Source of the DNA: Dermatophagoides farinae
Taxonomy: Eukaryota > Arthropoda > Arachnida > Sarcoptiformes > Pyroglyphidae
Direction: 5' to 3'
NCBI RefSeq assembly: GCF_024713945.1
Contig: NW_027461518.1
Location: forward strand, 124,001 to 188,000
DNA length: 64,000 nt
Part shown: positions 1,800 to 54,687 of the stretch, in pieces
Position numbering within the stretch: position 1 is the stretch's first letter
Layout: each line of letters begins with the position of its first letter
Made by a program: the position numbers and the translations under genes
Notes under the pieces: model-generated
The model's input: only the letters and a program-made list of their open reading frames with translations
The model's database searches: none
What the model was told of the DNA's origin: nothing

Positions 1800-2347
1800 A
1801 TGAATGAAGATTTCAGCAATTTTACAGACAACGAAGGCAGGGTTTATGTATACAACGAGGAGTTAGACGAAAATCGTAAGTCCGATACATTTGACGTTTT
1901 GCAGAAACTTACTACACGACTTATGTGGATACACAGCAAAAAGTAAATACTGAAGCCATATATAATTTGAGTTTTGATCGCGTTCTACTTTCGTCGTCAA
2001 ACTACGACGAAGTCTGGAGCAAATTTCATAGCAACTGGGCTTCGATCGATTTTTGCATTGAAGCGTCTCAATGTTCTATCAAAAAAGACGGTTACGAGCT
2101 CACTAAGCAATACAAAGATCGAATTATAATGCAGATTTACAAGGAAATGACTGAAAAGTTTTCTTCGATAAACAGTAATATCGAGCCAAACATTGTTTTT
2201 CCGCTCGATTACTTCACGCAGCTGTCCAACATAACTAACTTTGAGCGGTTCAGCATGGGAAACGAAGAGGGCCCACAAACTAGAGATGAAATCATTAGTT
2301 TCATCAACAAAATTAAAGAATACAATTTGAGTCACATCATAAATTAG
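1800..2347 (+). CDS. Unknown protein, two exons
   Basis: I do not recognise this gene. An ATG at 1800 opens a short first exon (MNEDFSNFTDNEGRVYV). Read straight through, that frame hits a stop soon after 1940. Removing a 29-nt intron at 1876-1904 (GTAAGT...TTGCAG) joins it in phase to the long downstream frame, giving about 172 residues. The product is soluble, acidic and mixed-helical, with no signal peptide or membrane segment that I can see. The stop codon at 2345-2347 directly abuts the stop of the convergent gene at 2348. It follows the SMC gene by 41 nt on the same strand. The intron and frame are supported by sequence; no function is proposed. Confidence 0.65.
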
Positions 2348-3136
2348 CTACGCAATAGTCAGCGAAATGTCGTCCAGACCCCACGACGCCAAGCAATTGT
2401 CAGTTTCATTGAGGTCGGTAGAAAATTCAATCTCGATTGTAGATTTGGAATGAGCCACTATGACGTCAAAGTTGTTCGACATCCTGTCGGGGTACAGGTT
2501 CCCGCAGACGTTGATTCCGTTTTCAAAACATTCTTTTTCATTTTTTTTCGTACACCAGCTGTGAGTCAAAGCTTTCACCGGAGTTCCATCTATTTTAATT
2601 GCAAACTGATTATTTTTCCATTTGTCGAAAAAATGAACTAAACCACGCAGACGAACGAATCGATGGAACGGCAGTTCTGCCGTTTTTCGAACGCTTTTCT
2701 GCCCGCCCAGCAAACAAGGGCCTCCCAAAAAAATGTTCAGCTGATTGTGGCAGTTTGACACATCCTGGAAACTGTAGTTGGCAAACTCAGTCTCGAAGTG
2801 GTCTTCGAAAACGACTTTCCAAGGAAAAATGTTGCTGGAATTCACATTAACGTTGTCTTTGACGTAGAGACGGTCGATGTTAACCGTCTCATGTTTCGAA
2901 ATTGAAATTTTGTTTCCCTGAGAGTTGGTGAGCTCAAAGCCCGTTGGCTTCATCGTCATGTCGAACACGTCTTTGTCGTCTCCAATAGGGGAAAGCGGAT
3001 TTTGCTTTTTGTTTTTCTTAAAGCGGATTTTGGAAAACTTATTTTTCCCGTCATCAACCATTAACCTGGCAGACACCAAAATGGGTGTTAGGAAAACGCA
3101 AAATGCCCAAAACAAGTTCGCATATGTCAGGTTCAT
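2348..3136 (-). CDS. Secreted jelly-roll-like (MAM/lectin-like) protein
   Basis: This 262-residue protein starts with a clear signal peptide (MNLTYANLFWAFCVFLTPIL, cleavage near VSA). A basic Lys/Asn linker follows, then a domain from about residue 100. That domain has paired cysteines and ends with SWGLDDISLTI, a sequence typical of MAM-like or carbohydrate-binding jelly rolls, where an Ser-Trp-Gly-x-Asp/Asn block closes the fold. Similar secreted proteins are common in alveolates, so a surface or extracellular-matrix role is plausible but inferred. There are at least two N-glycosylation sequons. The gene is a single exon and converges with the upstream gene with no intergenic base between the two stop codons. 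Its start faces a 112-nt spacer before the 3' end of GINS2. Confidence 0.6.
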   Translation of the reverse strand: MNLTYANLFWAFCVFLTPILVSARLMVDDGKNKFSKIRFKKNKKQNPLSPIGDDKDVFDMTMKPTGFELTNSQGNKISISKHETVNIDRLYVKDNVNVNSSNIFPWKVVFEDHFETEFANYSFQDVSNCHNQLNIFLGGPCLLGGQKSVRKTAELPFHRFVRLRGLVHFFDKWKNNQFAIKIDGTPVKALTHSWCTKKNEKECFENGINVCGNLYPDRMSNNFDVIVAHSKSTIEIEFSTDLNETDNCLASWGLDDISLTIA

Positions 3137-3248
3137 TGACTGAAAAGTCGAAGCGTTGCGTATCTACTTGTTTTCCACGTTTACAACGGCGTTTTCGTTG
3201 TTTAATTTGCAATCTACTCTTAATTTTTTTAAATCTATAATTATTTAA

Positions 3249-4021
3249 TTAATAAAACCTACAGTCTGAGTGTTTTTCGAACGGTTCACTAATTTTTAAT
3301 TCGTCCTTCAAGAGCTGATTCAGCGTCAGAGACATTGGTTCGTTGGACGCGTCCGTTGAACGAACATAATTTGCCACTTCAGTTTGAATGAGAGGCCGTT
3401 CGAACGCCGCAATATTGGTGGCCTAATTTTAGTTAAGTCAGTTAACTTACGTTAATGTAATAATTTTTTGTGAAAATTTTGTTATCTATAAATTTTTGGA
3501 TTCGACACTTACATTTGGTGATTTTTTGTTTTCGCAGCTGCGTAAGCACTTCGAAATGTTTCATAATCTCCTTTTTTATCATCAACAATGCTTGGTCGTT
3601 GAGTTTTTTCAAAGTTTGAATTTCTTTCCACTCCACATCTTTGTAACTGAAAAATTTATTTATCGGCAACTTACTTGTCAAAAAAAATATTGGCCAGTTC
3701 GTAAAAATATAAGTCTGGCACTTCCTTCAGCGACTCAGTTTTGTTCTCGAACATTATCCATTTTTTCAATTCTTCGATGGACAGCCATTCATACGGAACT
3801 AGTTTGATGTATTGGTATTCAAGCAGTATCTTGCAAATCGTCACCGGAAGCTGAGCTCGATCCCCCACGTGATATGGACCCAAATTTGGCAGCAACGGAC
3901 AGTTCACGCGTTCCAAAGGTTTTACAAAGGTTACAGAAGCGTTACACAAAATTTCTGCAAAAAAACTTCGTTCATTTTCAGACAAAAATCCCACTCGGCG
4001 ATGACCCGTAGACAACCACAT
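3249..4021 (-). CDS. GINS2: DNA replication complex GINS protein PSF2
   Basis: PSF2 is a subunit of the GINS tetramer, which joins CDC45 and MCM2-7 in the replicative helicase. Exon 1 begins MWLSTGHRR and then shows the PSF2 hallmark FLSENE, a NLGPYHVG block, PVTICKILLE, and the LVPYEWLSIEELKKW motif. Three short introns (3647-3674, 28 nt; 3486-3512, 27 nt; 3423-3450, 28 nt; all GTAAGT donors) join exon 1 to the second helical segment (DVEWKEIQTLKKLNDQALL) and to a tail ending at 3249. The spliced protein is about 240 residues, longer than the roughly 185 of most PSF2 proteins because of a tail of about 70 residues that I cannot match to the family. The last two introns rest on splice signals and phase only. 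The family call from exon 1 is strong. Confidence 0.75.
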
Positions 4022-4237
4022 TAAAAAAGTTTGAGCTAAAAAAAATAAAATAAGTTAAATATAATTAAGTTTATATGCGATTTTTATCTGGATCACAACA
4101 AAAAAAAGACAAATAGTTTTAATAAATTATAATAGAAGTAAATACTTGATGAAGGTATTATTAACATTTAATTAAGTAGTAGGAGACCAGTTTTAAATTT
4201 ATCTCATCTCGTTCTCATCAATTAGTTTAGCTTGAAC

Positions 4238-6740: not shown

Positions 6741-9700
6741 CTAAATGATCGATTGGTAAATCTCACTAAAGCCACCGTGAGCCCGCTTAACGTTATAGTA
6801 GTAGTTAGCAACGCATCTTGTGCGAAGCAGTGAAACGAAATTTTCGTCATGAGTTATCAAAATGAGCTGAAAATTATTGTGTCTATTTTGCAACATTAAA
6901 ATTTTCGCCAAGGCTTCGGCTAGCGACTCGCAGTTCTTTGCATCTAAGTTCGTGGTCGGTTCGTCTAGCGCGAACAAGTGACACTTTTTCGAGATAACTT
7001 GCGCTATAGCCAGCCGAATTATCAGCGAAGCAATGACCTTTTGACCGGCGCTGCAGCGTCCTTTCATAGTGACGGGAACGTTAGACTTGTGCATGATCAC
7101 TCGGTAGTCGTACGATTTGCTTTCTGATTCGGCATTGCTTTCAATGCTGATGTAGTCTATGTCTGAGTTCGAGTATATTTGCGTCCACAGTTCGCGAAGT
7201 TTCAAGTTGATGTCCTGCATTTGATGTTTATGGAACTGAATGATAGCTTTTTCAAAATTGCTAGTGTAGTTTGCTAGGTCTGCGATTAGTGCTTTTGTCG
7301 TTTGCTGTTTGGTCAACAACGACTTGTGTAATACGAAAATATCATCAGAGTAGTGTGATTTGAAATTTCGAAGTTCCTCATCCTGCTGTGTAATTGCTTT
7401 GCAAAGTATGCTGATCTTGCCTGTCTGTAAGTCGCATTGTTTGGATATTTCGCGCAACTCGCTCGTACGTTCGTTTAATTCTTTCTCAACTTCTCGATGT
7501 AAAGTTTCGCTGAAATTCAATTGCGTTAGCTGACGGTTTACTTCGTGTAATTCAATATTTTTCAACAAAAGTTGGGGGTCAACAGCGTTCAATTGTGCTG
7601 TTAGACTGTCGTGCCGGCATTGCAGTTCGTCGGTTTCTGTCGTCAATTCATTTATCTTCGTCACGTTATAGTTTAACTTTAAAATTTCATTGTTGAGTTT
7701 CTCGAATCTCTGTTTTTCAACCTTGAGCTGTGAAATGCTCGAGTTGTTATTTTTTATCAAGTTAAACACCGAAATCGACTCATTAACAGTCTTCTCAATA
7801 TCGCCTTCGATATTTGAAATTTCAGCGTTCAATTTGTCTACGCTGTGTTCACACTTTATTGAAGCCAGCTCTTCTTTTTTCTTTTTCATCATTGATGTAA
7901 AAAAGTGTTTTCGTTCTATTTCTTGTTTGACCGAATTTAAGTCAGTTTGAAGACTTTTTACCTTGTCTTCCCCTTCTTCCAGCCTTTTGATGTTTTCGTT
8001 TATCTCACTATTTAAGTTGTCGAGAGTTTGAATTTGAAAGTTTGAAGCCGATCTGTCAGTGACAGGCGTCGGCTTGTTCTGAGTTGAACTGTTAGTTTGA
8101 GTTTGCTCTGCTGTCAAAACATTTATCAGTTCGGTTGTTTTCTTGTATTGTACAAGCTTCGTAAAATAATCGCAAAATTGTTTTAAACTTGAAAACATAG
8201 TTAGTAATCCATGACTGTTTTCGTCAGGATTAGGTGTATTTTCTTTATTCATGTTTTTTGCGCAGTATAAACAGTCCATAACTTGATTGAAAAGCTCGCG
8301 GAATTCGTTGTTTCTGACTAAATCGAATAAAAGTTTCACGTCGTCCAAACGGCATTTAGATAGGGAGTTAGTGGCTGTTTCTTTCTCAATCATTTTTGTG
8401 AATTGCTCGATGTTTTTAGCATCGTTCAAATTTAAGATTCCATAAGCAGTAACTATTTCGTTGAAGCGGGCCTGGAGCTGTTCCAAATGCGAAAATTCCT
8501 CTGTTATATGCGAATTTTGCAGCGGGATGAGATAGTTTAGTAGCAGGAACAAAACTTCATAGCTTACGGAACTGAATTTACGACCTACCGAGCTCATCTC
8601 CAAACGTTCGACCTCCAACTCCAGTTCTTTCGCCTCAGACAACAATTTCTCAATGTTGGGTATGTAATATAGAGAACTTTTTTTTGTTTGGAGCGACTTT
8701 AGCGTGTTTTTGACTTCCGCATTTTTGGCGTTTAGCAAGTTTAGACTCGTTTCCAGTTCATCTTGCTGAAAACTGTCGTTCTCTGTCAAAGTGAGCTTGT
8801 CGGTTAACTGCTTTATTTCGCACGAAAGTAGCTCGTGTTTTTTGCTCATAGACATTGTATCGATAAGCAACTGTTTTTTTATAGCTACAAGATTTCTTTT
8901 TTCTTGGACTCCTTTCTGCAAGTTTGCATATTGTTTCTCTAAATCAGAAGTGCTGCTCGTCAACGAGTCAATATTGCTTTGCAAATCCTCTATTTTTTTA
9001 GTGATTAGTGCGGGGGAAAAATCAACGTTTACGTTTGGAAAAAGTTCTTGTAGTTTTTGTTTCAGCTTTTTGTAATGAGCGAGTAAATCTCTGTTTGCTT
9101 TCAAAACGGTGTTTAAATCATCACGCTCTACTACGAGAGCTTTATGTTTTGATAAAACTTGTTTTGACTCCTCTACTGAGATTCCTGATACTGAAGATTG
9201 CGCTAATGGCGAAGAAAAAGTTGAACAAATTTGTTCTTTGCAGGCCAGTAACTTATCGTAACTGCGTTTTAGCTGAGTTAAATTGTTGTACTGCTCTAGG
9301 GTTTTATCCACCTGATCGTGTAAACTTGTTTTTTTTTGTTGCAGATCAGTGAGAATGGCGTTTTCATCCGTAAAACTCGACTCTAGAAGCGTTTTTTTCT
9401 CAATCATCTTGTTGTACTGCTCTATGTCTTTGGTGACGAGCAAAAATTCCGTCTCTAACTCTTTATCAAGTTTAGCATATTTTTTGCGTACCGAGTTCAA
9501 TGTGTCCAACGCCTTGGCATACATACTGTAGCCAAAAAGCTCGTCAAATTTCTTCTTCAACGTTGCACTGTCCGCCATTGGCCAGAGGTTATCTTCTTGG
9601 TGGCAAAACAAAACGTTGTTGATCATTGAAGGCGTGGTTTTCAAAAAGTTCATGATTATCTTGTTGGTTTCGGTTTGTTTATGGGCGTACACTTGGCTTT

Positions 9701-11519: not shown

Positions 11520-11522
11520 TTA

Positions 11523-13943: not shown

Positions 13944-14339
13944 TCAAAATTTATGGTAAATCTTGGATAAAATAGTCAATACAAAAGAAATTAAATAATA
14001 TAATAAAATCATAAAAATAACTATAAAAGCCAAAATCCAAATCTTCTTGGCATAACTATAGGTATTTAAATAAATGACTTTATTTACCGAAGTTGATATT
14101 CGGTTTGACAACGTGTTCAAGCCATTTTGCTAAAATAAATCAAACTATAGACTTACCATCATGGTAAAAAACACGTTTGATTCGACAACATCTTGATTTA
14201 TTTGCTCAGATAGCTTTTTCAGTTCAAAAATTTTGCTTTCCAGTATGTTCAAGTGTTCTTCGTTTTTTTGCCGTAGTATGTCGACTACTATATCGTTATG
14301 TACATTACTTTTTTGACTTGTTCTGCGTTCAACATGCAT
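13944..14339 (-). CDS. Bet1-like Qc-SNARE, two exons, tail-anchored
   Basis: Exon 1 encodes MHVERRTSQ followed by a heptad SNARE helix (KNEEHLNILESKIFELKKLS). A 27-nt intron at 14130-14156 (GTAAGT...TTTTAG) joins in phase 0 to exon 2. Exon 2 completes the helix and adds a hydrophobic anchor (WILAFIVIFMILLYYLISFV) near the C-terminus. The order short N-tail, SNARE motif, linker, single tail anchor and the ELKKLSEQINQDV block match Bet1/Sft1 SNAREs of ER-Golgi and intra-Golgi fusion. The position where Bet1 carries the zero-layer Gln appears to be Ser (VESN against KTQN). I start at the ATG at 14339; an in-frame TTG lies upstream. The protein is about 120 residues, the usual size. Confidence 0.65.
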
Positions 14340-15946: not shown

Positions 15947-16262
15947 ATGAAGATTTTGTAAGTTAACAGTTTCAAACTGCTTTTTTAGTGGATTTTCCGA
16001 CTTGGCGGAAAACTCTAGTTGTAACAGCTTTACACATCAACGAACTGGCCCTGATAACGCGAACTCAGTTCACTTTATCTTGTATAAAAACGGATTTCTC
16101 GTCTACAACAAATTTTTCGATTTTGCTGACGTCAACAACATCAGAATGTGGGAAGAAATTCAATCAGGCCAGTTTCCAAAAGAATTGGTTCATTTACAAG
16201 ATCATCGTAAAGGCTCGGTGTCTGCTCAAATCTCCGAAAAAAACGAAATGTATGAGCCTTGA
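15947..16262 (+). CDS. SEP-domain protein (p47/Shp1-like), two exons
   Basis: A three-codon first exon (MKI plus two bases) is joined over a 31-nt intron at 15958-15988 (GTAAGT...TTTTAG) to a second exon ending at TGA 16262. The 94-residue product contains a SEP domain: FILYKNGFLVYNKFFDFADV, then MWEEIQSGQFPKELVHL. In p47/NSFL1, UBXN2 and Shp1 this trimerising domain precedes a UBX domain that binds p97/CDC48. Here the protein stops soon after the SEP domain and no UBX domain follows before the next gene, so a p97 adaptor role is only inferred. The short protein could be a naturally reduced cofactor. Confidence 0.65.
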
Positions 16263-19277: not shown

Positions 19278-20409
19278 ATGGTAATGGAGCTAAACGATAA
19301 GTTTGGGCTTGTAACGGAGCATCAAAAGATGCTGAATCAGTTTACAAAAGAATTAGAACGTGAGTTTAGGGTATAACAATTGTGTAGTATTAAATGAAGA
19401 AGTAGTCAAACACGAACCGTACAATTTTGAAAAATGGAGTAATGAGTCGAAATACACTCATCCAGACCATTTTGAGCTAAGAGTAGTCGTTGACATCATA
19501 AAATCGCTACTGTTCATTGAACTGCCCACAGAAATGACACAAAACTTTTCAAAAGAAGTTTTGGCATTTATCCAGTACAATCAGAATCGGCAGCTTCTTT
19601 TTGTTCTCAATTCAATCGTGCCGCTTATAGAAGCTCCTGTCTCAGATGAATTATCTCACCAGTTGATAACTAATTTGCACACAGAAATCGTGCATGAGCT
19701 CTGTAATAAACACCAGAGAGGCTACATTGATCCAAGTTTCTACATTAAACCAATAAACTCTGACTGGGACAGTTTATACCATTTTGTCCCCGGATCAGTT
19801 CCAGCAACAATTGATTACAATAGAACGCAACCTACTCCACTTTTGGAGTCGCACAACAAACCATTAACAAGACAAACATCGGAATTCAAAACAGATGTGC
19901 CTTTTGGAAGCACCTTGAGCCTGGACAATTTAGCGACCAGCTCCAATCCGCTTTCTATGTCTGCCATGTCCAAAAGCAACAACCTGGCAGGTCTGCAAAA
20001 TCAAATCAAGAACATAGCAACCAAAAACTCAGAGGAACAAGTAAATAACTCAAAACCGAATTTCTCTTCGTCTATACGCGAAAGTTTTGTTATACCAAAA
20101 TCCATACACAATATTCTAAACAATAACAAGAATTCTGTTCGATTTACTGAAATAAAAGACAATCACAGTGACTCACGTCTGCTTTCAAAAAGTCTTAAAA
20201 CGTCGCGGTTTTTGACAGAAAAGCCTAAAAAAAATATTGCACAACCGAAGGCAACATCGTCTGCAAAACAAATACCCAAGAAAAATTTAATGAGCAATAA
20301 AAAAATAGACAGCCAATCAATTAAATCGTTGTCCTCAACGAAATCGTCTCTTTCACCGCCAATTACGAAATCTAATATCAAACTTGATTCTGCAGTAAAA
20401 AAAGGCTAA
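19278..20409 (+). CDS. Unknown protein, two exons
   Basis: I do not recognise this gene. An ATG at 19278 opens a 27-codon exon (MVMELNDKFGLVTEHQKML). Its frame ends in a stop shortly after, unless a 28-nt intron at 19360-19387 (GTGAGT...TGTAG) is removed, which joins it in phase to the long frame. The first 150 residues of the 368-residue product look helical and ordered (FELRVVVDIIKSLLFIELP). From about residue 170 the protein is disordered, Ser/Asn/Lys-rich and basic (many KS, SSTK runs). No signal peptide or membrane segment is seen. It follows RPN1 on the same strand after 197 nt. Confidence 0.6.
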
Positions 20410-22728: not shown

Positions 22729-24930
22729 ATGAACCATCAAGAGCACAATTCAAATGGTAAGCCGTGTTCATCGACCAATTTTAGTGTATCACAACCAAAA
22801 TAATTCAATTCCTCACAATTATATTAATAACCAAGATTCACTTATCTACGAAAACCCTAACATTGAATATACTAGAAATAATTTTTCGTCAATGATTTCT
22901 AGCTCTCATGCCGTCCACATGCAGAACAATCATCCTTCTCAACTAGCAGGTAACCACCAACAAGTACTCAATATGCATCAACCTCACATGGTTAACAAAC
23001 ATCATGGTTCACTTCCTAACAACCCTAACAGAATTTATAATCCACATCTTGATCGAAATACTCCATTAGACGCTCATGCTGCACAACGACGAATGACACC
23101 CAATCCGAATATTTACGTTATGCCCCAATATCATCAGAATCCACGCGCGAAACAAGTAAGAATGCCATGCTATCCGCAAAACCAGCAATATTATACGTAC
23201 AGAAACCAGCAAATGGGCAAAGGTCCAACAATTATACAAAACGAAAAAGAAGGTAGTGTATTCAGCCTCAATACAACTAATCCAAATCGATTCAATAACA
23301 TCGTCCCACAATCTGAAATTTTGCGCATGAACTACGTAAAAAGACCGCAAAAACCCATTTCTAATATGAATTATAATTATATGCCTCAGCAACACCCCAT
23401 GCAGCACGATAGGAACATTCCTGGCTCAGTCCGTAACGCTCCTATGTGGTCTGAACAACAACAACAGCAGCAATCTATGTACCAATATCAAAAGCTGTCT
23501 CCCGAATTGGTAACCAACTCCAATATGAATATATCTCAAGTTTCTCCATTCTCTCATGGCAGCAAACCGCATATGTATGCCCAACAGAACTCAATCAACC
23601 AAGCAGATGTTAAAATAATGCCTTCCACTGATACAATGACTATGGCAGAGCCAAATGTCCAATATATGGTAATGAATCAAAAGCCTATGATGTATTCGAG
23701 TTCTCAGCCCAATATGAAGCAAAATTATTACGCATCCAACATGCCCCATCAACGATTGTCAAATATGGACGCAACCAGTGTACACTATAATTTACCTGAA
23801 AACAACGTGACAGGCGAAAATAGTAATATAAAAAGAGATGTTTTTCAACCTAGCAGACCTAACGCTGCTTTGAGTGACGCAAACTATCTGAGCACGGCTG
23901 GAAAGACCTCATTACAAGAAGAAGTTACAAACAATACAAATGTCGACGAAAATATCTCAGACATTTACACTCCCTACAAGTACTTCAATAACCTGCAGCA
24001 AGAAGAAAACAACGATGATCAGTCACGAAGTATAAGCACTCCAGATAACGCTAAAAAAACCAAACTGAATAACAATGTTATCACCGTTTTTAATCAAGTT
24101 TTTAATTCACGAATCATTGCAGGAATCTCACTCTTAGACAAGGCAGCAGGTAGCGAAAATAGCTGGTTGCAGCTTGACAACTCAATTAAAGTAGACTCCA
24201 ATATAAATGGAACTAATGTTTCGTCAAACTTCAATTATTCTTATGCGGAAGTTTTCATGTATTCACACTTTTCTTCTATTGAAAATTCAGACAAAATCAA
24301 CCGTTTTTTGACTTATCTAGATAAAATAGCTGACAACTATTACAGATACATCTGCAAAGACGAATGTTGGCGAAATCTCAATACTTTAAACAAGGACAAA
24401 TCGTTCCTGCCTTCTTCCAAAAGCACCGGAAAAGAGATTTGGATAAGAAAATACTACATGCCTTTTCATTTGCAGAACATTTCTTGTGCAAGGATTTACA
24501 GCAAAAATTTTATTAATATTCAAGATCAGCTTGCTTGCAATTCAAGACTCGTGTCGGAAACGGCAGCCACGTCCAACTTTATTTTGTTTCTTCAAAACAT
24601 AGGGTACAAAATATATCAAGCTAATTCTATCTATTCAAGGGGAATTCTGTATAACATCGATCCAGGCACAGACAAACACATAATTCTGTCTGTATTCAAT
24701 CTTTACAAGGTAAGCAAACAACAATAAAATTCTTTTAGAATAATCAATTCACCAAAAGACTTTTCGAAAATTCTCTGTTAGTCGAGATAAAGTTGAGAAA
24801 TACAGATCCGAAAAACATTAGCTCGATAGCTAACTACCTGAAAGAATTCGCTGACAAGCTCAAGCCGTAAGTTCGTCTCAACATTCGAAAATATCCTTTT
24901 AGTTACGTGAAATTTGTTAAATTTAGCTGA
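22729..24930 (+). CDS. MED18: Mediator subunit 18-like protein, four exons
   Basis: Three tiny introns are placed. 22757-22784 (28 nt) joins MNHQEHNSN to the main frame. 24710-24738 (29 nt) and 24867-24902 (36 nt) join the last exons. The spliced C-terminus ends NSLLVEIKL...IANYLKEFADKLKPYVKF, matching the MED18 C-terminal beta-strand and helix (LVEV...L..FA..LKPLV). The MED18 beta-barrel occupies roughly residues 430-700. Before it is a 400-residue Asn/Gln/His/Met/Pro-rich low-complexity region with a poly-Gln tract, which the fungal and animal proteins lack. MED18 is in the Mediator head, contacting RNA polymerase II. The family call depends on the last two exons, so misplacing those introns would hide it. 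Confidence 0.6.
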
Positions 24931-30473: not shown

Positions 30474-30890
30474 TTATGTAGGTTTAGGCCTGGACTTGTC
30501 AATCAACCTATCTGGATTCATAGCTTTCCAATCGAGAGGCCTTTGTGACCAAGCAATTGGAATTCTCGACAATTCGGGTGTTACCGTGGTAATTCGTAAG
30601 GAATTGGGATGTTTTGAAAACTTAGACCTGTTCAGTACTTGCAGTTCATGATTTTCCTTTTTTGCTATTTTTTCAGACGTAAACCCTAAAAGGGCATTAC
30701 AGGAATATTCTGCGGGAACAGACTGTCCTGCCCAGTTCATGCAACAAAATTCCTGACTTCAAATTCGAACAGAGTACACTTACTCATCATCTTCAGTTGT
30801 AAACATTAATGCATTTTCACATTCTTTAGGAACGTTCGTACGTGCCTTGATCAGATTCGCCACCACCAGTAAAGTAATATACGCTATCAT
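30474..30890 (-). CDS. Small secreted protein, two exons
   Basis: I do not recognise this gene. Exon 1 encodes a signal peptide (MIAYITLLVVANLIKA) and a short mature segment. A 27-nt intron at 30757-30783 (GTAAGT...TTGAAG) joins in phase to exon 2, giving about 130 residues. The alternative acceptor 4 nt further on, TCAG, causes an immediate frameshift stop, so the less usual AAG acceptor is preferred. The mature protein has four cysteines (one in the first exon, two adjacent and one nearby) and a Pro/Arg/Trp-containing tail. It could be an extracellular or host-directed protein. The stop codons of this gene and the ABC transporter are separated by one base. Confidence 0.55.
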
Positions 30891-31681: not shown

Positions 31682-32763
31682 CTATAGCGATAAAGATTTA
31701 TAGGCTAAGTCCACTTTGGCAAATAAATTTTCACAATTTTTAATTTTGCATTTATCAGGGTGAATTAATCTTGCGATTTGCTTATAGTTTGCTTTACAAA
31801 CTTTAATTATAGAATTTCTCGAAGAAGATCGAATTACATTGGGTATTAATAATACATCGTAAGCATGAGCCTTACAATGCAAATTCTGAAGAAATTTGCA
31901 TAAAGCATCTTGGTTACTGAGCAAGAATGCAGACATATCTTCCGTAATAGAAATATTGTCGAATCTAAAATTACGGATTGCATCGTCAAAAAGTTTTTGT
32001 TGCGCCTCACGCTTTTGTTTGTTCGTCCATTCTTGACCAAAATTTATTTGTTCATAGGCGTTGTTTATTTGAATGCAAATATCACAGTCTAATTTGTTTT
32101 TTTGCGGAATAAAAGTGTGCCCAGCTTCACAAGTGTACAAGTTAATTATTTTATTGTTTCTATAAAATGTTTTGAGAATATACTTTCGTATGAACGCTTC
32201 CTTTGTAAAAATTACAATTTCATTTTCACACTCGCGGCACGGAAAGTTCTTTCCTACTTTGACTCTTCCGTGAGTAGAACAGGTTACTCTTTTAGTAGAT
32301 TCTGCATTAACAGTCGATTGCCTGCCAGCTCGGGAACTTGTAGAGTTTTTATCAGATGCAGAATTTACGGTCGACTGTCTGTTGCTACGAGTAAACTCAT
32401 TAGGCGAGTTGTTCATTTTACGCTTCTTTTCGTTTTCACGATAAAACTCGTCGATAGGTGGTCTTCGAGCACTGTTCAACAGACTCAGGGTTCGTTGACA
32501 CTTTTCTTGCAGCTCGTTCATTTTATCAGAATGAAATAACAACGACTCTCGCGCAGTTTCAATATCTTTCTTAGTAATGATAATACCAAACAAGGATGTT
32601 ATATTTTCATAATAGCTTTCGATTATTGAGTTACAAAAGTCAATATGATTACCTAAACTTCGAAAAATTTTAACTTATACTACACTTACGATTTTATAAA
32701 TGCTTCCGCTTCACGAACTTGCGCATTCGTGATTAATGATGTATTATTATCAGCATCAGTCAT
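31682..32763 (-). CDS. C-terminal J-domain protein with Cys-rich middle, two exons
   Basis: Exon 1 (MTDADNNTSLITNAQVREAE) is joined by a 32-nt intron at 32658-32689 (GTAAGT...TTCGAAG) to the main frame. The alternative acceptor TTTAG gives an immediate stop, so the AAG acceptor is used. The C-terminus is a J domain with HPDKCKI near residue 335 followed by FAKVDLAYKSL; J domains stimulate Hsp70 ATPase. Upstream are Cys pairs (CSTHG...CREC and CEAGH...CDIC), which probably bind zinc. J at the C-terminus with a zinc-binding middle is unusual. The frame also stays open upstream of the ATG at 32763 for about 20 codons. Confidence 0.6.
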
Positions 32764-43153: not shown

Positions 43154-46009
43154 ATGAGTCAGCCCGTGGAAGCTGTGCAGCAAAACAATACAGCTAAACC
43201 TAGAACCTACAAATATCAAATAGGTCCGTGGTTTGAAACGAATATCACTGCTGACTTAATATATGACGTTTACGCTTTACCAGCAGAATTTAGAGAAGAT
43301 ATACGCGTCTTAATTTTGCAAACACTGCATGGTGATGCCAGTATTTCAAAACTAACTTGCAATTCAAATGAAGAATGCTGCTGCTTGTCTTGTTTCGACA
43401 AATTACTCAAAGATTGTTTGCTCTTGTCTAGCAATCAGTCAATAATGATAGAAGGCGTTCAAGCTTCGAAAATCTTACCTCGTTTTGTTTGGTTTCGTCA
43501 TGAACTACTGCGATTATATGAGAGACCGTCAGTTTTAGACTTGAACGAAGAAGAAGAAATAGACGATGAAGAGACTAGCGAAGACGATATGGACGAAGTC
43601 CCCTTAGTCGAGCAAATCGAGGATTCTCAAGAAAATGTGCTTTCCGACGATGAAGAAGTAGAAAAAAACCAACTAGATGAAGAACAAAACTTTAACAAGA
43701 TTTCAAACGAAGCAAATCCGTTACAAGTAACAAGCAAGAATAATAACATTAAGATTTTACTTTTTGATGAAAACCTAGATCAGAACGAGTCGCAACTAAT
43801 ATCAGAGATGCCCAACACTGGTATTGTCGATCCTATAGGTAGATTTGATATCGCGGTTAGAGATATTCAATTTAGGTTGGCTAAACATGGAATATTAGCT
43901 GACCCAAAATCTTATCGAAGTACGAGGGGCAAAGAAGAACTGTATGACTTGAACGACCCTTTTATTGATGACACCGGAGATATGGCAGACGTGATTTCTG
44001 ACTACTCTGCCGAGTCTAATAGTGAGGTAGAGGAAGACGTGAACGAAGAACCCTGGAATAGCGACATGGACGAAATTTACGAAAACAATCATCATTATTT
44101 TTGCTTCGACAACTTTAGTGAAGAGGAAGAGGAAGACATTATTCAAAGAGACGAAAATGACAAAAGAATAATTAAATGTTATGAATGGCTAAAACCTACA
44201 AACCTCCCACTCATTTACAATCCCAAACTTTGGTATATTTCAAGCAAAAGGACACAGCTTCCTGTTTTCATACATTTATTTTTCAAAGCGTTAGAATACG
44301 CTTTATCACTAAAAAAGACGCAAATCCTACAGAAAAGTGTTTTTGACCGTTTTGAATGGGTTATTGTAGATGAAGAAGCCCAAAGCCTGAAGCTTAATGA
44401 AGAAGCTGTTCAATGTATCACTAAATTAATATCAAACATAGTTCACTGTACGTTTGAAAGTTTTCTCGTTTCATTTTGGTTTCAGTATGTGCCAGATAGC
44501 AATGTTACCATTCCCTATTTTGTTAAATACATAAAATACAATGACATTCAAGACCCTTTCGTTCATGGATTTTGTCCTTCAGACCCTTATAACTTTGAAA
44601 TAATTTATTCTATTCTGTCGAATGTAGTCACACCGTATGCGCCTGAGAAATCTCTCTGTCGAAAATGGTATTGGATTGCAATTTTTGAGCACACTCTACG
44701 TTGTTTTAAAACACTTGAAGAACACCTGCTTGCTTATTGCAAGAAAGATCCAAATCTAGTTTATTCAAGAATAAAGTCCAACTCCCAGTCTAACAAAGAT
44801 GGATCGTCCACGGCTGAACAAACTTCTGCCTCAGTCAGCGAAAAAGGTCTGTTTGTGTCTGGTTTATTACCTGAAATTGCTTCTGATGAGCATTTGGCAA
44901 ACGCTTTTATTTTCGCTTACAAACAGAAATCTCGAATAGCAAAAGCAATGTTAAACGACGATATGATAGTTCCTGCTATTTTACTCATGATTCAGAAACC
45001 TGCACCTGATAAACTTTTGCCAACATACACCAAAGAAGAAGCTGAAAAGATAGTGAATTCCAACATCGGAGAGTACGCTCAAGCTCTATTCTGTGATTAC
45101 CCAGAAATCGCTTCACTGATTTATAAGTTAGCACAAAACGTGAACAATACTGTCGATCAAGAAAATTCAAGCAACCTGCAGGAAATTAATCTCGAAGTTT
45201 TAACGTACAAAAAAACTCCAGAAGAAAGAAGCTGGGATGTTGGTTCATCTTCAATAGCCAGATATAAAAAACAGCGGGGAAGAAATCTTATTGTCGAGCT
45301 GGTCAACAACTTAAATTCAAAATTAATTAATAGTATAATGGCTTGTCCGTTCCAATTTCCAGTTAAGTTTTTTGTCTCTACTTTGTATAAAGGAGAAAAC
45401 ACTCTTGTTTTTTTAACATTGCATGACTTCAAAAATTTATTTGAGGTTTCTATTCGCTTTGACTCCACTTATCCTAAAGTACAAGACGCTTGTTTAGACA
45501 AAGAACTCGAGTTTACAGACATTAACCGGATTTTAGACTACATTGCTGACAAAGGGTTCCAAATCGAAGGCAGATCGCGCTCAATGACCTATGTAGGTTT
45601 TGACAACAAAATTAAATCTTACTGTTTGCTCTTATTGCCCAATGATTTGCAACATTTATCTACAAACGCGAAAATTGAAAACTATTCAGAACTTTTAAAG
45701 CAAACTCAAGGCTCTCTTAAAACCAGGCTCAATTTATTAGATGTAATATTGTTTTTATCATATTTGCACGCTGACAACTCAGGAAATTTTGATATTAGAT
45801 ATCTTTTTAGCTGGGATGTCGTAAAAGAAAACAGGAACTTTCAGATATACTTAGAAAAAAACATTCATCACGCAGTCGTTTACTCCAGGAATGAACCAGA
45901 AGACCTTTGGTTAAGGTTATTAGACAGATTTTTTACAACTCAGTTTACTCTGGCTAAAGTTATTCACAAGCACTGGCATACAATGACAGTAAATGCAACG
46001 CATAAATAA
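43154..46009 (+). CDS. Large acidic unknown protein
   Basis: I do not recognise this single-exon 951-residue protein. The first 130 residues look folded (Cys cluster NEECCCLSCFDK near residue 76). Next is a 200-residue acidic, disordered region (EEEEIDDEETSEDDMDE near 130 and EEEEEDII near 320). The rest is helical with many aromatic residues. The C-terminal part (residues 640-950) has a folded look with strands (RFDSTYPKV...). No catalytic motif is visible. Acidic linkers of this kind are common in chromatin or RNA-polymerase-associated factors, which is a weak hint only. Confidence 0.55.
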   Translation: MSQPVEAVQQNNTAKPRTYKYQIGPWFETNITADLIYDVYALPAEFREDIRVLILQTLHGDASISKLTCNSNEECCCLSCFDKLLKDCLLLSSNQSIMIEGVQASKILPRFVWFRHELLRLYERPSVLDLNEEEEIDDEETSEDDMDEVPLVEQIEDSQENVLSDDEEVEKNQLDEEQNFNKISNEANPLQVTSKNNNIKILLFDENLDQNESQLISEMPNTGIVDPIGRFDIAVRDIQFRLAKHGILADPKSYRSTRGKEELYDLNDPFIDDTGDMADVISDYSAESNSEVEEDVNEEPWNSDMDEIYENNHHYFCFDNFSEEEEEDIIQRDENDKRIIKCYEWLKPTNLPLIYNPKLWYISSKRTQLPVFIHLFFKALEYALSLKKTQILQKSVFDRFEWVIVDEEAQSLKLNEEAVQCITKLISNIVHCTFESFLVSFWFQYVPDSNVTIPYFVKYIKYNDIQDPFVHGFCPSDPYNFEIIYSILSNVVTPYAPEKSLCRKWYWIAIFEHTLRCFKTLEEHLLAYCKKDPNLVYSRIKSNSQSNKDGSSTAEQTSASVSEKGLFVSGLLPEIASDEHLANAFIFAYKQKSRIAKAMLNDDMIVPAILLMIQKPAPDKLLPTYTKEEAEKIVNSNIGEYAQALFCDYPEIASLIYKLAQNVNNTVDQENSSNLQEINLEVLTYKKTPEERSWDVGSSSIARYKKQRGRNLIVELVNNLNSKLINSIMACPFQFPVKFFVSTLYKGENTLVFLTLHDFKNLFEVSIRFDSTYPKVQDACLDKELEFTDINRILDYIADKGFQIEGRSRSMTYVGFDNKIKSYCLLLLPNDLQHLSTNAKIENYSELLKQTQGSLKTRLNLLDVILFLSYLHADNSGNFDIRYLFSWDVVKENRNFQIYLEKNIHHAVVYSRNEPEDLWLRLLDRFFTTQFTLAKVIHKHWHTMTVNATHK

Positions 46010-46114
46010 TATAATAAGCTATATGGATTCACTATTTTATTTCTTTTTTTTATATTTTGTGAAGAAAAAAAACTTATAAATTTTGGAGGCGTCTTACTTC
46101 GCTCATATTTTACA

Positions 46115-47098: not shown

Positions 47099-48869
47099 AT
47101 GGTTTCTCTTAAAAAATTCTTTGTCGGAACTTTTGTTTCGTTTTTGGTAAAAGCGACTGTTCCTGACGTTATCGAAAATAGGGTCTTATATGTCGACTTT
47201 GGGACTAATCAACTCAACAATGAAATAACAATGTTGACTTTGAATCCTGAGTGCTTATACAATTTAAATACTACAACGGAATATAATTTGAAACTGCAAT
47301 CTGCACATAATTTTTCTCATAGAACAAATGGAAAAAACATGAGTAAAAAGTCTTCCGCGGTTCAGTCAATTATTGAAACCATAAACTACAAGCTATCTGA
47401 ACACAGCGGTATTTATTCTCGAAAGTTAATGTCATACCTCGAAACACCCATTGTTGAGTACGAGTTTTTAGAAAATGTTGACGTCTTACTAATCAAAAGT
47501 AAATCAAAAGTTGAAAATAAAATTAAACTACTGCAAATTTTAGAGTCTGTCCCATGTAATTTAGATTCACCTAGATTTGACAGATACAGACCACGGGAAA
47601 TTGACCCAAAAATAGATTTCGACGTTTTTAAAAAGTACAATGAGTACTATAACAAATGGGATCCAAAGTATCAACGAAAAGAGGAATACATAGAAATTAT
47701 CGAGTCACACTTCAACGAGCTGTCTGGTATCAAAATGTTTAAGCGCCCCAATGACCCGCAATTCTATGACCAGTGGCACTTATTCGGGCCCGATCAACTT
47801 GAAAAATATGGAACAGATGTTGTCAGCACCTGGGAAGCCATTTTAAACCATCTTTCGCAAATTTACGACCAGCCAGCCGCAGCGTTTTTTGAATATGGAC
47901 TCAACCTTGAACCTATAGAGGTAGCGTTAGTTGACAGTGGTTGCTCCATGCACAATGATTTGATCGAACGACTTGCCTACATTGAACATTGTACTTTCGG
48001 CCAAAAAACCTATTTTGACCCCGTTACTCAAAAGATAAAAGGATGTTTTGGCCACCATTTCGGTGACAACCTGCCTGACCCTACAAACGACACTGCAAAC
48101 CACGGAACACCTGCCGCTGGAATAGTTGCTGCGAAGTCAAACAACAACATTGGCATAAGCGGAATCTGTCCAAGCTGTAAGGTTGTATGTTTAAACATAG
48201 TAAACAGTAAAAACGGGAAAATCGCAACTAGCTCAATCATAAAAGCTATTGACTACATTATTGAACGCAAAATCAAAGTTTCCAACCACAGCTACGGCGG
48301 ATTCGGAAGCGACATGACAGAACAACGAGCTTTCCAAAAACTTCACAAAACTAACAACCACCTCGCTTTCACTGCAAGCGGAAACGCAGGTTGCAACATC
48401 GGTTGCAATAACTACAACTATTGCCCTCGCAAATGTCTAACCAAGAGCCACTGGACACCTGCAGAGTTCCATATTGATTCTTTAATTACTGTTGGGAGCA
48501 CAGACCGAGAAGGAAACGTTTCTATGTTCAGTAATGTAGGAGATCAAACCGTCGATTTATTCGCTCCTGGTAACAATATTGTATCACTCTCTAATTTAAG
48601 CCCCAATAAATTGGTTGTAGTGAGCGGTACCAGCTTTAGTTCGCCTATCGCTGCAGCCATAGCAGCACTACTTTGGAGTTCCATACCCACTGCTACACCA
48701 GCGCAAGTCAAAAAAGCGTTACTACTAGGCGCTATTCGATATGATCATTTGAGATGTAAGTTTATTATTGCAAAAATTATCCTTAGATTATTCCATCATT
48801 CCAGGTATTATAAACGCATTGAATTCGTATAAAATATTACAGTCTTTAGTGTTAGAAAATACATACTAA
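47099..48869 (+). CDS. Subtilisin-like serine protease, secreted, two exons
   Basis: A signal peptide (MVSLKKFFVGTFVSFLVKAT) is followed by a prodomain of about 250 residues and an S8 catalytic domain. The catalytic Asp is in LVDSGC (near 280), His in NHGTPAAG (near 336), oxyanion Asn in TASGNAGC (near 427) and Ser in SGTSFSSP (near 513). Paired cysteines suggest an extracellular enzyme. A small 3' exon encodes GIINALNSYKILQ, ending at 48869, joined by an intron starting at 48756. The acceptor is either 48786 (31 nt, matching the others) or 48804 (49 nt); both keep frame. It lacks a P domain, so it is unlike furin/kexin convertases. It could process surface or secretory proteins. Confidence 0.85.
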
Positions 48870-49056: not shown

Positions 49057-49470
49057 ATGTCTTTCCAACTGCACAGACTCAAGTCAGGCTGGGCCGTTGA
49101 CCAAGCAATCGTAACGGAAAAAAACAAGTTAGTTGTCGTGCGTTTCGGTCTTGACAATCACCCCAGCTGCATGATCATGGACTACATGCTCCACAAAGTT
49201 AAACCTATTGTAAGAGAACTAGCCAACATCTACACAGTCGACATTGATGACGTCCCTGACTTCAACGAAATGTATGAACTTTATGACCCACTAAACTTGA
49301 TGTTTTTTCACCGAAACAAACTAATCATGATCGATATGGGTACTGGAGACAACAATAAAATCACCGAACCTTTCAAGGATAAACAACAACTTATTGACGT
49401 TATTGAGTTAGTTTATAGAGCCGCCACCAAGGGCAAAGGTTTAGTTGCCTATGACGTTTTTCTAAAATAA
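49057..49470 (+). CDS. DIM1: U5 snRNP thioredoxin-like protein DIM1
   Basis: The 137-residue protein is an intact DIM1/TXNL4A/Dib1. It has a thioredoxin fold without catalytic cysteines: VVVRFGLDNHPSCMIMDYML replaces the CxxC strand, and the family block YELYDPLNLMFFHRNKLIM is followed by IDMGTGDNNKI. The usual VRFGHDWDPTCMKMDE pattern is recognisable although diverged. DIM1 is in the U4/U6.U5 tri-snRNP and controls its activation. Length matches the 142-residue human protein. It is a single exon and converges with the unknown gene ending at 49483, with 12 nt between stops. Confidence 0.92.
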   Translation: MSFQLHRLKSGWAVDQAIVTEKNKLVVVRFGLDNHPSCMIMDYMLHKVKPIVRELANIYTVDIDDVPDFNEMYELYDPLNLMFFHRNKLIMIDMGTGDNNKITEPFKDKQQLIDVIELVYRAATKGKGLVAYDVFLK

Positions 49471-49482: not shown

Positions 49483-50034
49483 TTAATTATTTGACAAGGA
49501 AAAATCCACATCAGCCAATTTTTCTTTGATCATCGTATCCAATCGCTCCAAAGACTGATTCAATGTAGGTTTCGTTTCAAAGTTGTATTTTTTTTTACTT
49601 ACATTGCAAAATGCATTGTCGTATAAATATTTCACATCGCAGTTTTTAACAACCCAAGAATAAGAAATCTCGTTGGGCAAATTCAATTGAAAATTTGTAC
49701 GCGTCTCAACGAGGTCACCGTTGATTGTAGTTTCATTGATTCTATTTTTTTTTAGTTTAGAATTCAAAAAGTAACCAGATATCAAAGAGTCGAACATATC
49801 ATGATACGTGTCTTCTATCATGGTTGCAGAGCTATCATCGAAAATTTCTTTTATTTTCAACTTCTCTAAGCAAGGCTCACCTAATTGATTTAATATATTT
49901 TTCTGTATCTCAAATATGACATTCCATTCTTCTGAACTGTCTTCAAGACTCTAAAATGTACTAGCATTCGCACTTACACAGACATATTGAAACCTCTCAT
50001 ACGTCTTCAAGCTTTTATATTTGCTTTCATCCAT
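49483..50034 (-). CDS. Unknown helical protein, two exons
   Basis: I do not recognise this gene. Exon 1 (MDESKYKSLKTYERFQYVC) is joined over a 27-nt intron at 49951-49977 (GTAAGT...TTTTAG) to the main frame, giving about 175 residues. A further candidate intron at 49555-49602 (48 nt, GTAAGT...ATCAG) lies in the main frame. It is a multiple of three and stop-free, so both spliced and retained forms would be readable. The protein looks helical, with leucine spacing typical of small kinetochore or complex subunits (LDTMIKEKLADVDF at the C-terminus), but no family was identified. Its stop lies 12 nt from the stop of DIM1. Confidence 0.55.
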
Positions 50035-51065: not shown

Positions 51066-51187
51066 TCATCAAACATTGCGCGTAAATTAAAAAATTATTC
51101 AAAAAAACAATTATTCGCCTAACTCAGATTTATTGACAGAAATGCTCGATAAATAAATCACAAAAGATTCTACAACAACAGATAAGT

Positions 51188-51959
51188 CTAAAATAATTTT
51201 AAGGGATAGCCGCGAAACTTACAGCAATTCTTCGTAAACAATATACTTTTTAACAAAAACACGATTTCTGGAATTTGATCGCAAACAGAAAACTTGTTTT
51301 GACCGAAATCGATTTTTATTAACGTGTTTAAAAGCCAATTCAAGAAAGAAGAACACAATAAATAAGTGGGATTTTTGAGTAATATAGAAGTTAATACATG
51401 TATTTCGAATTTCAAAAGCGTCAAAACAACGTCCGATAAATATAAAAAAGCCACATTTTTTTTTTGAAGCACACCAACGTCATACAATATGTCAACAAAA
51501 AATTTTTGTTGATCCTCAGATAACTCTAACGTTAACTTGTCAAAAGAAGTAAATATGTTGTACCAGAATAAACGACGACAATACCAAGGTTGCGAAACTT
51601 TTGTATGAGACGCAACGAGAATACTATTTATCTTATATTTAACAAAAAACTCGGCTTCAAAAACATCAAATTGGTAATCAACCAGCGAAATGCAATCGGA
51701 ACCAATGCAAATAGAACTTGGATCAAAATCGAAACAATCAAATTTAATGCCTTTTATAGAAGCCAACCTAGCTTCTAATGGCATTATAACATATTGAAAC
51801 TTCTGATCAGCGTAAATGTTTTTTTTTATTTGAACTAAATCCGTCGTATCAACCGAATCAAACTCAGATACAAAACAAAACTCAGAACTAGAACAAATTT
51901 TATAACAATGTAACGAATTTATTTAAAACCTACATTGTCCTTAATTGAAGTTTTTCCAT
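51188..51959 (-). CDS. Unknown protein, two exons
   Basis: I do not recognise this gene. A first exon from an ATG at 51959 (MEKLQLRTI) is joined over a 46-nt intron at 51888-51933 (GTAGGT...TTCTAG) to the main frame; the intron is the longest placed in the window and has a less typical donor. The product of about 240 residues has short hydrophobic stretches (VAFLYLSDVVLTLLKFEIHV) in a soluble-looking context and a Cys/Trp pair (QPWYCRRLFWYN). If the first exon is wrong, an internal ATG at 51784 (MPLEARLAS) would give a 198-residue protein. No function is proposed. Confidence 0.5.
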
Positions 51960-52121: not shown

Positions 52122-54203
52122 ATGAGTTCAATAAATGATAATATTCCTGAAATAGAAAAATCAGAAAACTCAGCCACTACAACTTTGAACAGCGAAATTG
52201 ATAACAATAATGATATAATAGAACTCGATTTAACGAAAAAATCCGAAAAAATACAATTGTCAGACAAAAAGAGATTAGTATTCGCTTCAGACTTGAGTTG
52301 TTCAACAACAAACGCGAATGAATATAGCTTAAACCAAAAAACTTCTGACGACATTAACAGTATTACGATGGAATTGAAAACAGATTTAAAAATTGATGAA
52401 AGTACTTGCTTAATTAAAGACAATTGTGATCTGGAAGATGGAGAGATTTCAACTTATAAAACTGGAAGCACAACACTCAAGTACAACAGCGAAAACTTTG
52501 ATTTCTACACGTCAATGGTAGTGTTGAAAACAGGTCAAGCTACATCTGAGGATTATGGTACTTTAATTAATCCCTCACAAAATACATCAGAAAACAAAGG
52601 TGAAAGAGGTTTCAAAAGGATAATTTCTCAACTGAGAAGTTTGAGATCCAATAATAATAACCAAGCTGAACCTGTTGAAGAAAATTTAGACGATAATAAA
52701 CTTGAGCGAAAACAAGAAAACGTATTTGCTTTATTAGAAATGAATTCAGACAAAAGTGATAACGAAGAGTCTGTGTCTCAGGCATTTACATCGCCTAGAG
52801 AGGAGAGTGATTTGGAGGACGAAATCAATAGTTATTCTAGCATATGCGCAACTTTATCGTCATCTGAATCGTATGAAGTAAACATTGATAAATTCATGCA
52901 TAGAGCTAAACCAATTTCATCAATGCCATTTTCAAACTTCATGTTCAAACCAAATTGCCCTGTAGCCACATCTTGGCGCGAAAAAATCGGAACCGATATC
53001 ACAAAACTCTCATTTAGAGAAAGACTACACGAAGAGCTACTAGCTTTCGTTGGTTCAATCGATCTGACTTCATCTGACGATCATCATAGACAACAAATTT
53101 TTGCTGTTATAGTCCAACTGGCTTCGCGACTCTGGCGGCATTGTAAAATTATCACATTTGGTTCTTACGCAACCGGACTGTCTTTAAGAGATGGAGACAT
53201 TGACATATGTCTGCAAAACGTTCCTGTTCAGGGTAATCACCCCCATTCACTTTATGTATTAAAATCGCATTTATCTAGAATGCCTTGGTTTTGTTCAAAC
53301 ATCCACATAATAAACAAGGCAAAGGTTCCACTCTTAAGATTCACGCACGTTTCTTCTAAAATAAACGTTGACATCAGTTTAAACGTCGATTCTGCAATAT
53401 CGAGTACTTTTTTCATCAAAAACTACTTGTCTTTTTTAGCTCCCATGAGACCACTTATTTTATTTTTAAAATACATTCTGAAAATGAATGATTGGGCTGA
53501 TACGTATACTGGAGGAATTGGGAGCTTTTTGCTGTTTGTTATGTTATCTTTCCATTTCCAGCGTGAGTACTTAAATAATGAAAACTCTGCCGTAATTAAT
53601 CCCACTAATACTTCTAAACATTTCAAAGTTTTGAATAACTACTTTACTAAATTCGTGAATTATGAAGACACGTATCGAAACCTCGGAATAGAGTTGATTG
53701 CTTTTTTAAAACGATACGTCTCATTCGACTACCTTAACGAATCTATTGATCTCACTTCTAAAACTGGTACCAATAAAATAAATAAAATATTTTATGACGA
53801 TTATGCTGATATTAGTGAATTCAGATTTTCGATTATCTCTCCTATTTCGAAAAACGAAGACATTGGCAAGAAAACCTTTCAGATCCACGAAATTATTTGT
53901 TATTTCAAAAGACTTATCGATAGAATACAGTATATTAGTGAATTAGAACTTTATTATTTAGAAAACAATGACACAAACACTTTAAACCAAATAAGAGAAA
54001 AATCTATTCTCAGCTTTGTCTTCAGTGACATTGACCTTAACTATCATAACAAATTCAAACCCAAAACTCCAAATTTTACAGAGTACGACGTTTACAAACC
54101 ACACACGTTACCAGAAATTACAAAAAAACATTTCAAAGAAGCCAAACAACTAATTGATGAATTACTAGTGGAAAATAATTACAAATCTAGGTATTCAAAG
54201 TGA
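52122..54203 (+). CDS. Non-canonical poly(A) polymerase / terminal uridylyltransferase (TRF4/TUT type)
   Basis: The 693-residue protein has a disordered, acidic 260-residue N-terminus. Its nucleotidyltransferase domain carries the GS helix TFGSYATGLSL near 347 and the metal-binding DGDIDICL near 357-364. The third Asp lies in INVDISLN near 416. The central PAP-associated domain follows (GGIGSFLLFVMLSFH near 465 and the NYEDTYRNLGIELIAFLKRY block). Enzymes of this family add A or U tails to RNAs in nucleus or cytoplasm (TRF4/PAPD5, TUT4/7, Cid1). I cannot choose a subfamily without modelling; no zinc finger is evident. It is a single exon and converges with the ZSWIM7-like gene, with 24 nt between stops. 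Confidence 0.85.
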   Translation: MSSINDNIPEIEKSENSATTTLNSEIDNNNDIIELDLTKKSEKIQLSDKKRLVFASDLSCSTTNANEYSLNQKTSDDINSITMELKTDLKIDESTCLIKDNCDLEDGEISTYKTGSTTLKYNSENFDFYTSMVVLKTGQATSEDYGTLINPSQNTSENKGERGFKRIISQLRSLRSNNNNQAEPVEENLDDNKLERKQENVFALLEMNSDKSDNEESVSQAFTSPREESDLEDEINSYSSICATLSSSESYEVNIDKFMHRAKPISSMPFSNFMFKPNCPVATSWREKIGTDITKLSFRERLHEELLAFVGSIDLTSSDDHHRQQIFAVIVQLASRLWRHCKIITFGSYATGLSLRDGDIDICLQNVPVQGNHPHSLYVLKSHLSRMPWFCSNIHIINKAKVPLLRFTHVSSKINVDISLNVDSAISSTFFIKNYLSFLAPMRPLILFLKYILKMNDWADTYTGGIGSFLLFVMLSFHFQREYLNNENSAVINPTNTSKHFKVLNNYFTKFVNYEDTYRNLGIELIAFLKRYVSFDYLNESIDLTSKTGTNKINKIFYDDYADISEFRFSIISPISKNEDIGKKTFQIHEIICYFKRLIDRIQYISELELYYLENNDTNTLNQIREKSILSFVFSDIDLNYHNKFKPKTPNFTEYDVYKPHTLPEITKKHFKEAKQLIDELLVENNYKSRYSK

Positions 54204-54227
54204 AGACTTTTTTTACGGCTGGTTGAG

Positions 54228-54687
54228 TCAGTCAAAAATATCTGTAAGCGAGTATTCCAATTGCTTATTTGTAGTTTTTTTTGTTCTAATTAAAACGTAA
54301 ATTAAATGACTACATAGTCCTACCTGCTTTAAAAATTCATCATTTTTTTTGGCTTTTGCTTTTAGACACAAGCTACAATAAAAAGGTAAAACTAAAAAGA
54401 ATTGATCGGCGTCAGCAACCCGGTATGCATTATTTGATTGTATTATATTTATTTTTACAATTCCTAAATTGATGTTGATTATTTCAAGATCGAATTTTTT
54501 TCTAAAAAATATTAGTAAAAAAACATACAGTAGTAGCTTTTCAATTGAATTTTTTTGAACCAATGATGAAAGAAAATTTAACCTATTATAAACATCCCTA
54601 AAAATAACTTTTTCATTAAACACACCACTCGGTTTCAATTTTCCAATTTTCAAGAATCGAACCTAATATTAAATTTTGTTGATCCAT
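54228..54687 (-). CDS. SWIM zinc finger protein (ZSWIM7/SWS1-like), two exons
   Basis: An ATG at 54687 (MDQQNLILGSILENWKIETE) opens a first exon joined by a 28-nt intron at 54598-54625 (GTGTGT...TTTTAG) to the main frame, giving about 143 residues. That matches ZSWIM7 (140). The arrangement NSIEKLLLYVF, strands, then FYCSLCLKAK and a later CSHLIYVLI, and a final TNKQLEYSLTDIF mirrors ZSWIM7 (CSC..., CKHLLAVYL, DKQLTDILL). The first cysteine pair is C-x-x-C instead of C-x-C. ZSWIM7/SWS1 is a Shu-complex subunit aiding RAD51 in recombination. Its start lies 37 nt from the start of the divergent NDH2 gene. Confidence 0.45.

Follow-up and report, generated by a model that had tools for sequence, protein, structure and literature searches.

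Are the short GT...AG segments that interrupt reading frames on one contig of a mite genome assembly genuine introns and, if so, to which organism do they belong? We addressed this question in a 64,000-nt stretch from Dermatophagoides farinae (positions 124001-188000 of contig C15, NW_027461518.1; hereafter the window), where an original prediction had listed 18 uniformly tiny spliceosomal introns. Throughout, C1-C10 designate the large contigs of the assembly and C11-C22 the small ones. In our reading, to which we give a probability of about 0.9, these elements are GT-AG spliceosomal introns of the ordinary kind, almost all of them 26-36 nt long, from an undescribed apicomplexan in or with D. 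farinae, whose gene-dense nuclear genome would have been assembled together with that of the mite.

All 18 sites run from GT to AG on one strand (nine sites per strand), their lengths are 27-46 nt with a median of 28.5, and 15 of them start with GTAAG, as had been claimed for most donors; the other three donors are off consensus. Sixteen sites are kept here, one (51888-51933) is left open and one (54598-54625) is unsupported. The proposed class of uniformly tiny introns stands with these 16 and with 22 high-confidence introns outside the window, but not with the remaining two sites.

A narrow intron size class on the small contigs

Contigs and spacings were compared in a test that is free of gene models. 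The pattern GTAAGT-N15-19-TTTTAG, corresponding to 27-31 nt, has 160 matches in the assembly, 25 on C1-C10 (58.8 Mb) and, by subtraction, 135 on C11-C22 (3.6 Mb). When the spacing is made ten bases longer (GTAAGT-N25-29-TTTTAG), 47 matches are obtained, 15 on C11-C22 and 32 on C1-C10. The density per Mb on large versus small contigs is 0.42 versus 37.4 for the first pattern and 0.54 versus 4.2 for the second. The small contigs hence carry the 27-31 nt pattern at about 88 times the density of the large ones; ten additional bases lower this density ninefold on the small contigs but not on the large ones. The intron pattern is also present on C12 (9 matches) and C13 (2 matches). A reversed-pattern control (697 and 850 matches, exceeding the pattern itself) was unmatched in composition and was set aside. 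Overall, the whole-assembly pattern shows both the ownership of the introns and the narrowness of their size class.

Genes were modelled with a dicodon gene finder that reads both strands and includes explicit introns. In a held-out run on 126.7 kb outside the window, the donor and acceptor weights were derived from 15 window introns and the length was flat between 12 and 120 nt; the splice-site weights were thus window-only, whereas all stretches had contributed to the training of the codon model. This run called 37 introns, 19 of which measure 25-36 nt, while ten controls whose splice-site columns had been permuted yielded 21-36 introns of all lengths, 1-7 of them in the 25-36 nt interval. 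These results bear on the alternative that errors in the assembly or the reads, or lesions in pseudogenes, broke the frames and that the GT...AG segments fit by chance. The three off-consensus donors and at least one unsupported site are compatible with such an origin; on the other hand, permuted motifs produce no peak at 25-36 nt, and the 88-fold density on the small contigs with its ninefold fall at ten additional bases makes this explanation very unlikely.

Iterated over all 190.7 kb, the model contains 73 introns, 58 of them not longer than 46 nt. The final version recovers 15 of the 18 listed sites exactly, two with weak margins, and misses three. A high-confidence set of 37 introns was defined by a margin of at least 3, a length of at most 46 nt and a GTA start; calls above 46 nt were left out because those above 40 nt occur at the control rate (see below). 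The set spans 26-39 nt with a median of 29 and comprises 15 introns in the window, 12 of which belong to the listed 18, and 22 outside it (median 29.5, range 26-39); the GTA and margin filter excludes 19360-19387, 3486-3512 and 24867-24902. It had also been proposed that many introns sit close to the gene ends: in complete gene models, the first 20% of the coding sequence holds 17 of the 30 high-confidence introns and the last 20% holds 4. Two other settings of the gene finder were dropped, namely bare GT..AG sites with flat length (5 introns in 84 kb, power too low) and a lax prior (95 calls).

Protein homology across the junctions

The gene of the GINS protein Psf2, on the minus strand, contains three listed introns: 3423-3450 (28 nt, margin 14.8), 3486-3512 (27 nt, weak margin of 1.8, omitted in the flat-length run) and 3647-3674 (28 nt, margin 15.3). 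The last junction, at residue 116, lies inside the PSF2 match (residues 45-130, E = 7.9e-8). The Elf1 gene of L019, a locus on the right flank of the window, has a 30-nt intron at 7303-7332 of that locus, whose junction at residue 37 falls within the Pfam match (2-76); the product also matches solved Elf1 chains. In the prenyltransferase beta gene of C18 (L022), the Pfam match, residues 42-359 of the typed piece, crosses introns of 28, 29 and 30 nt.

The case of 27007-27040 (34 nt, plus strand), in a thioredoxin-domain gene with its start ATG at 26888, is less clear-cut, and the gene finder missed it. With the segment removed, the thioredoxin match has E = 1.8e-12 over profile positions 2-99, versus 1.5e-10 over positions 23-99 when just the open frame downstream of the acceptor is used. 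Splicing thus extends the match by 21 profile positions, supplies a start codon and raises the score by only about 6 bits, and the site is kept as a probable intron. A control in which translation began at the next ATG (E = 2.4e-4) overstated the gain and was abandoned for the fairer acceptor-frame control.

Elsewhere in the window, no junction falls within a recognised domain except that of 1876-1904 (29 nt, plus strand, gene 1800-2347, margin 5.6), which at residue 26 is spanned by a weak PRP39-like match (Pfam HAT_PRP39_C, 7-114) whose E of 1.1e-4 is below the curated cut-off. Altogether, intron removal restores the frame and a homologous protein in the Psf2, Elf1 and prenyltransferase genes and, weakly, in the thioredoxin gene.

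Origin of the small contigs

Contig C15, with a GC content of 34.9% in the window, is not mite but most likely apicomplexan. The single match of the alveolin profile and all four matches of the AP2 profile (three over the cut-off and one below) fall on small contigs, namely C11, C14, C16 and C19. In 10-kb stretches, open frames cover 0.52-0.92 of the sequence in ten from small contigs versus 0.00-0.51 in seven from large ones. A mite origin of the introns would agree with the presence of the contig in a deposited mite assembly. Against this stand the confinement of alveolin and AP2 matches to the small contigs, their higher open-frame cover, the second Prp8 and further tubulins that they carry, and the rarity of the intron pattern on the ten large contigs; moreover, the single mite intron examined, in the alpha-tubulin gene of C2, measures 67 nt. 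A mite origin is therefore hardly credible.

AP2 domains and alveolins are not exclusive to Apicomplexa. On this ground the owner might be another alveolate, such as a perkinsid or chromerid relative, the introns being real regardless. Matches in the PDB argue for Apicomplexa instead. The best match of the beta-tubulin on C19 is an entry that we take to be from Toxoplasma, followed by one presumably from Tetrahymena, a ciliate; that of NDH2 is an entry we assume to be from Plasmodium; for uL2, what we believe to be Plasmodium and Toxoplasma entries rank second and third, behind an unsourced entry scoring over two stretches. A gregarine 18S sequence is furthermore known from another mite, Caparinia (PMC6321676). 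Taken together, these points render a non-apicomplexan alveolate improbable. The apicomplexan would presumably lead a parasitic or symbiotic life and may be a gregarine or belong elsewhere in Apicomplexa.

Several side observations were made on the small contigs. Locus L032 carries two adjacent, divergently oriented genes with alveolin-like sequence and one small intron each; only one of the two genes matches the Pfam alveolin family. Divergent alpha-tubulin-like genes, named by eye, are found in L003 and L005 and at C11:236115-236756 and C17:110143-110772. Cysteine-rich repeats at L022 8331-9999 (minus strand) and L025 1-617 (plus strand) reach the cut-off of no Pfam family and resemble oocyst wall proteins. 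By eye, a chitinase-like (GH18-like) protein with a hydrophobic start is encoded at L020 959-3034 (minus strand), and the proteins of C22 look animal mitochondrial. In the window, 58767-62621 (minus strand) encodes a large protein with an adenylate/guanylate cyclase domain.

In total, about 3.6 Mb of apparent apicomplexan sequence (C11-C21) lies within the D. farinae assembly GCA_024713945.1. By eye, no telomere repeat was seen at the ends of C15 and C19 (all four, 300 bases each) or at the start of C21. As the ends read are not telomeric, the 3.35 Mb of C11 and C14-C21 is no genome size, and we make no claim to the smallest apicomplexan. The paper on this assembly describes 10 pseudochromosomes and states that potential contamination was removed (PMC11074847). 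Our literature search found no report of an apicomplexan in GCA_024713945.1. Dermatophagoides is unnamed in the main text of PMC5244568 and PMC10376638, as far as available, and apicomplexan taxa have been reported from house dust (PMC10321240).

Donor, branch site and spliceosome

The donor is GTAAGT in 28 of the 37 high-confidence introns, a count to be read knowing that GTA was required by the selection and that the model favours this donor. This strongly conserved donor would be bound by U1 and then by U6. The original prediction had seen neither an obvious conserved branch point nor a long pyrimidine tract. No motif stands out in k-mer counts over the 37 introns, in line with the first statement, yet the positions from -13 to -10 relative to the acceptor are rich in A (77 of 148 positions versus a permutation mean of 52.3). 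This stretch lies outside the training columns, so the A peak is independent of the model. T is enriched at -9 to -4 (134 of 222 versus 90.6); the acceptor model included columns -7 to -1, so this enrichment is partly built in. All 37 introns have an A within -14 to -9, which alone is little evidence in AT-rich sequence, and A is depleted at -6 (5 of 37 versus a permutation mean of 13.0). These profiles suggest an intron end made of an A-rich stretch, a short T-run and TAG, with the lariat adenosine most likely within the A-rich part, 10-13 nt upstream of the acceptor; we infer a branch A at about 11 nt.

Two proteins are relevant to the machinery. Prp8 is encoded on the sister contig C14 as a single open frame of 2341 residues. 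A Dim1 / U5-15kD gene, presumably coding for a part of the spliceosome, lies in the window at 49057-49470 on the plus strand (Pfam DIM1, E = 4.1e-52). Together they point to a spliceosome in the same organism, by which the introns would be removed from its RNA. These proteins also bear on the idea that the segments are developmentally eliminated DNA. In ciliates, internal eliminated sequences are short, of similar size, and bounded by TA repeats. The size alone would thus fit; however, the boundaries here are GT...AG on the gene strand and spliceosome proteins are present, which leaves this idea with a negligible probability.

Other points weigh against the interpretation of the elements as apicomplexan introns of one size class. 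The AP2 and alveolin profiles each also match one of 14 bacterial and archaeal control genomes. Calls above 40 nt in the held-out run number 16 versus 13-27 in the permuted controls; as this is the control rate, rare longer introns are neither shown nor excluded. Because 15 of the listed introns served as the seed of the final gene model, its recovery of sites in the window is not independent. Furthermore, neighbouring genes are wrongly fused in some gene models, and such a fusion is the probable source of at least one high-confidence intron among the 37, namely 3235-3262. Finally, all matches to the U2 and U6 families lie on large contigs, with scores computed for just 46 of the 3769 and 48 of the 7910 candidates, and searches with U2/U6 core patterns likewise match large contigs only; the sole small-contig match among 56 of a relaxed U6 search, C11:101544, is unlike a U6 gene on reading and was rejected. 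The parasite U2 and U6 that were not recognised may be absent from incomplete contigs, missed by this first look, or divergent. As a side observation, Rfam gave no match in the window and seven more stretches (none at the gathering score in 134 kb of small-contig sequence), and ARAGORN with bacterial settings found no tRNA in 164 kb of small-contig sequence including the window and L016-L025.

A more far-reaching proposal would be that, in a strongly reduced mite apicomplexan, the branch site is fixed by distance alone, with essentially one intron size class, a strongly conserved donor and U2/U6 diverged past recognition, so that splice choice depends on geometry over branch-site pairing. We regard this as rather doubtful.

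The remaining sites of the window

The other listed introns of the plus strand start with 15958-15988 (31 nt, margin 10.4), in a gene whose SEP domain lies downstream of the junction. It is followed by 19360-19387 (28 nt, GTGAGT donor, margin 7.2), which was recovered despite its absence from the training seed, by 22757-22784 (28 nt, margin 3.2) and by 24710-24738 (29 nt, margin 7.4). The 3′ end of 24867-24902 (36 nt) is uncertain, the margin being weak (1.5) and the flat-length run having favoured 24867-24926. Further downstream are 25238-25267 (30 nt, margin 5.4) and 48756-48786 (31 nt, margin 4.0), the latter near the 3′ end of a subtilisin-like protease gene, where the junction falls after the Pfam match and homology is uninformative.

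On the minus strand, the listed introns outside the Psf2 gene are 14130-14156 (27 nt, margin 5.0), 30757-30783 (27 nt, margin 6.7), 32658-32689 (32 nt, margin 5.1) and 49951-49977 (27 nt, margin 3.3). The gene of 32658-32689 has a DnaJ-like C-terminus, the DnaJ match being below the cut-off and far from the junction. The status of 51888-51933 (46 nt, GTAGGT donor, minus strand) is open: it was not called, the frames are open on both sides, and the first exon would have just 26 nt. As for 54598-54625 (28 nt, GTGTGT donor), the coding score on its minus strand is about 0 and two plus-strand genes flank it.

Four candidates outside the listed 18 were called in addition, none of which is confirmed by homology. 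They are 45989-46018 (30 nt, plus strand, GTAAAT donor, margin 8.4), which may falsely join two genes; 51188-51222 (35 nt, minus strand, margin 3.8); the weak candidate 3140-3184 (45 nt, minus strand, margin 2.2), just before gene 2348-3136; and 3235-3262 (28 nt, minus strand, margin 6.5), which probably arises from wrongly joining Psf2 to the adjacent gene, although it is still counted among the 37.

Implications and comparison with known tiny introns

If our interpretation is correct, about 3.6 Mb in the chromosome-level genome of D. farinae, a major source of allergens, derive from an undescribed apicomplexan. These contigs would provide a ready genomic resource for a neglected branch and, as a contamination, could introduce errors into lists of mite genes. 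With one more apicomplexan whose introns measure about 28 nt, one could also ask whether common descent or convergence accounts for this size class, and how the branch site is chosen in such short introns.

Introns of this size had been said to approach the smallest length that a spliceosome can handle, which is overstated considering the 16 or 17 nt of all introns in Mikrocytos mackini (PMC10245619), the 15-16 nt of those in Stentor coeruleus (PMC9505925) and the median of 28 nt [27-30], with a mode of 28, of the short introns in the gregarine Porospora cf. gigantea (PMC9250747). M. mackini is likewise a parasite with a narrow intron size class, but its introns are shorter and it is a rhizarian. 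Stentor resembles the present case in that its tiny introns are AU-rich and lack a strong consensus at the branch site; unlike here, where A-richness is spread over about four positions, its branch A is almost always at position 10 or 11 (PMC9505925). Babesia microti, with introns of 20 bp (as cited in PMC9250747), is an apicomplexan with tiny introns too, although shorter ones, and is compared by description only.

Porospora shares with the small contigs a size mode of about 28 nt, a gene-dense apicomplexan genome and a specific donor consensus. It has 1.8 introns per intron-bearing gene, and its short class makes up 71-72% of the introns, the rest being longer (PMC9250747); longer introns are not shown here. 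The two also differ in GC content (54.3% in Porospora versus 34.9% in the window) and in the acceptor region, where Porospora has a strongly conserved A at -6, a position depleted of A in our set, which is A-rich at -13 to -10 instead. The size class itself is already published in this gregarine, and the hidden genome is the unexpected part. Given the same size in Porospora and the shorter introns of Mikrocytos and Stentor, the introns of the window represent a known kind in what would be a new member organism.

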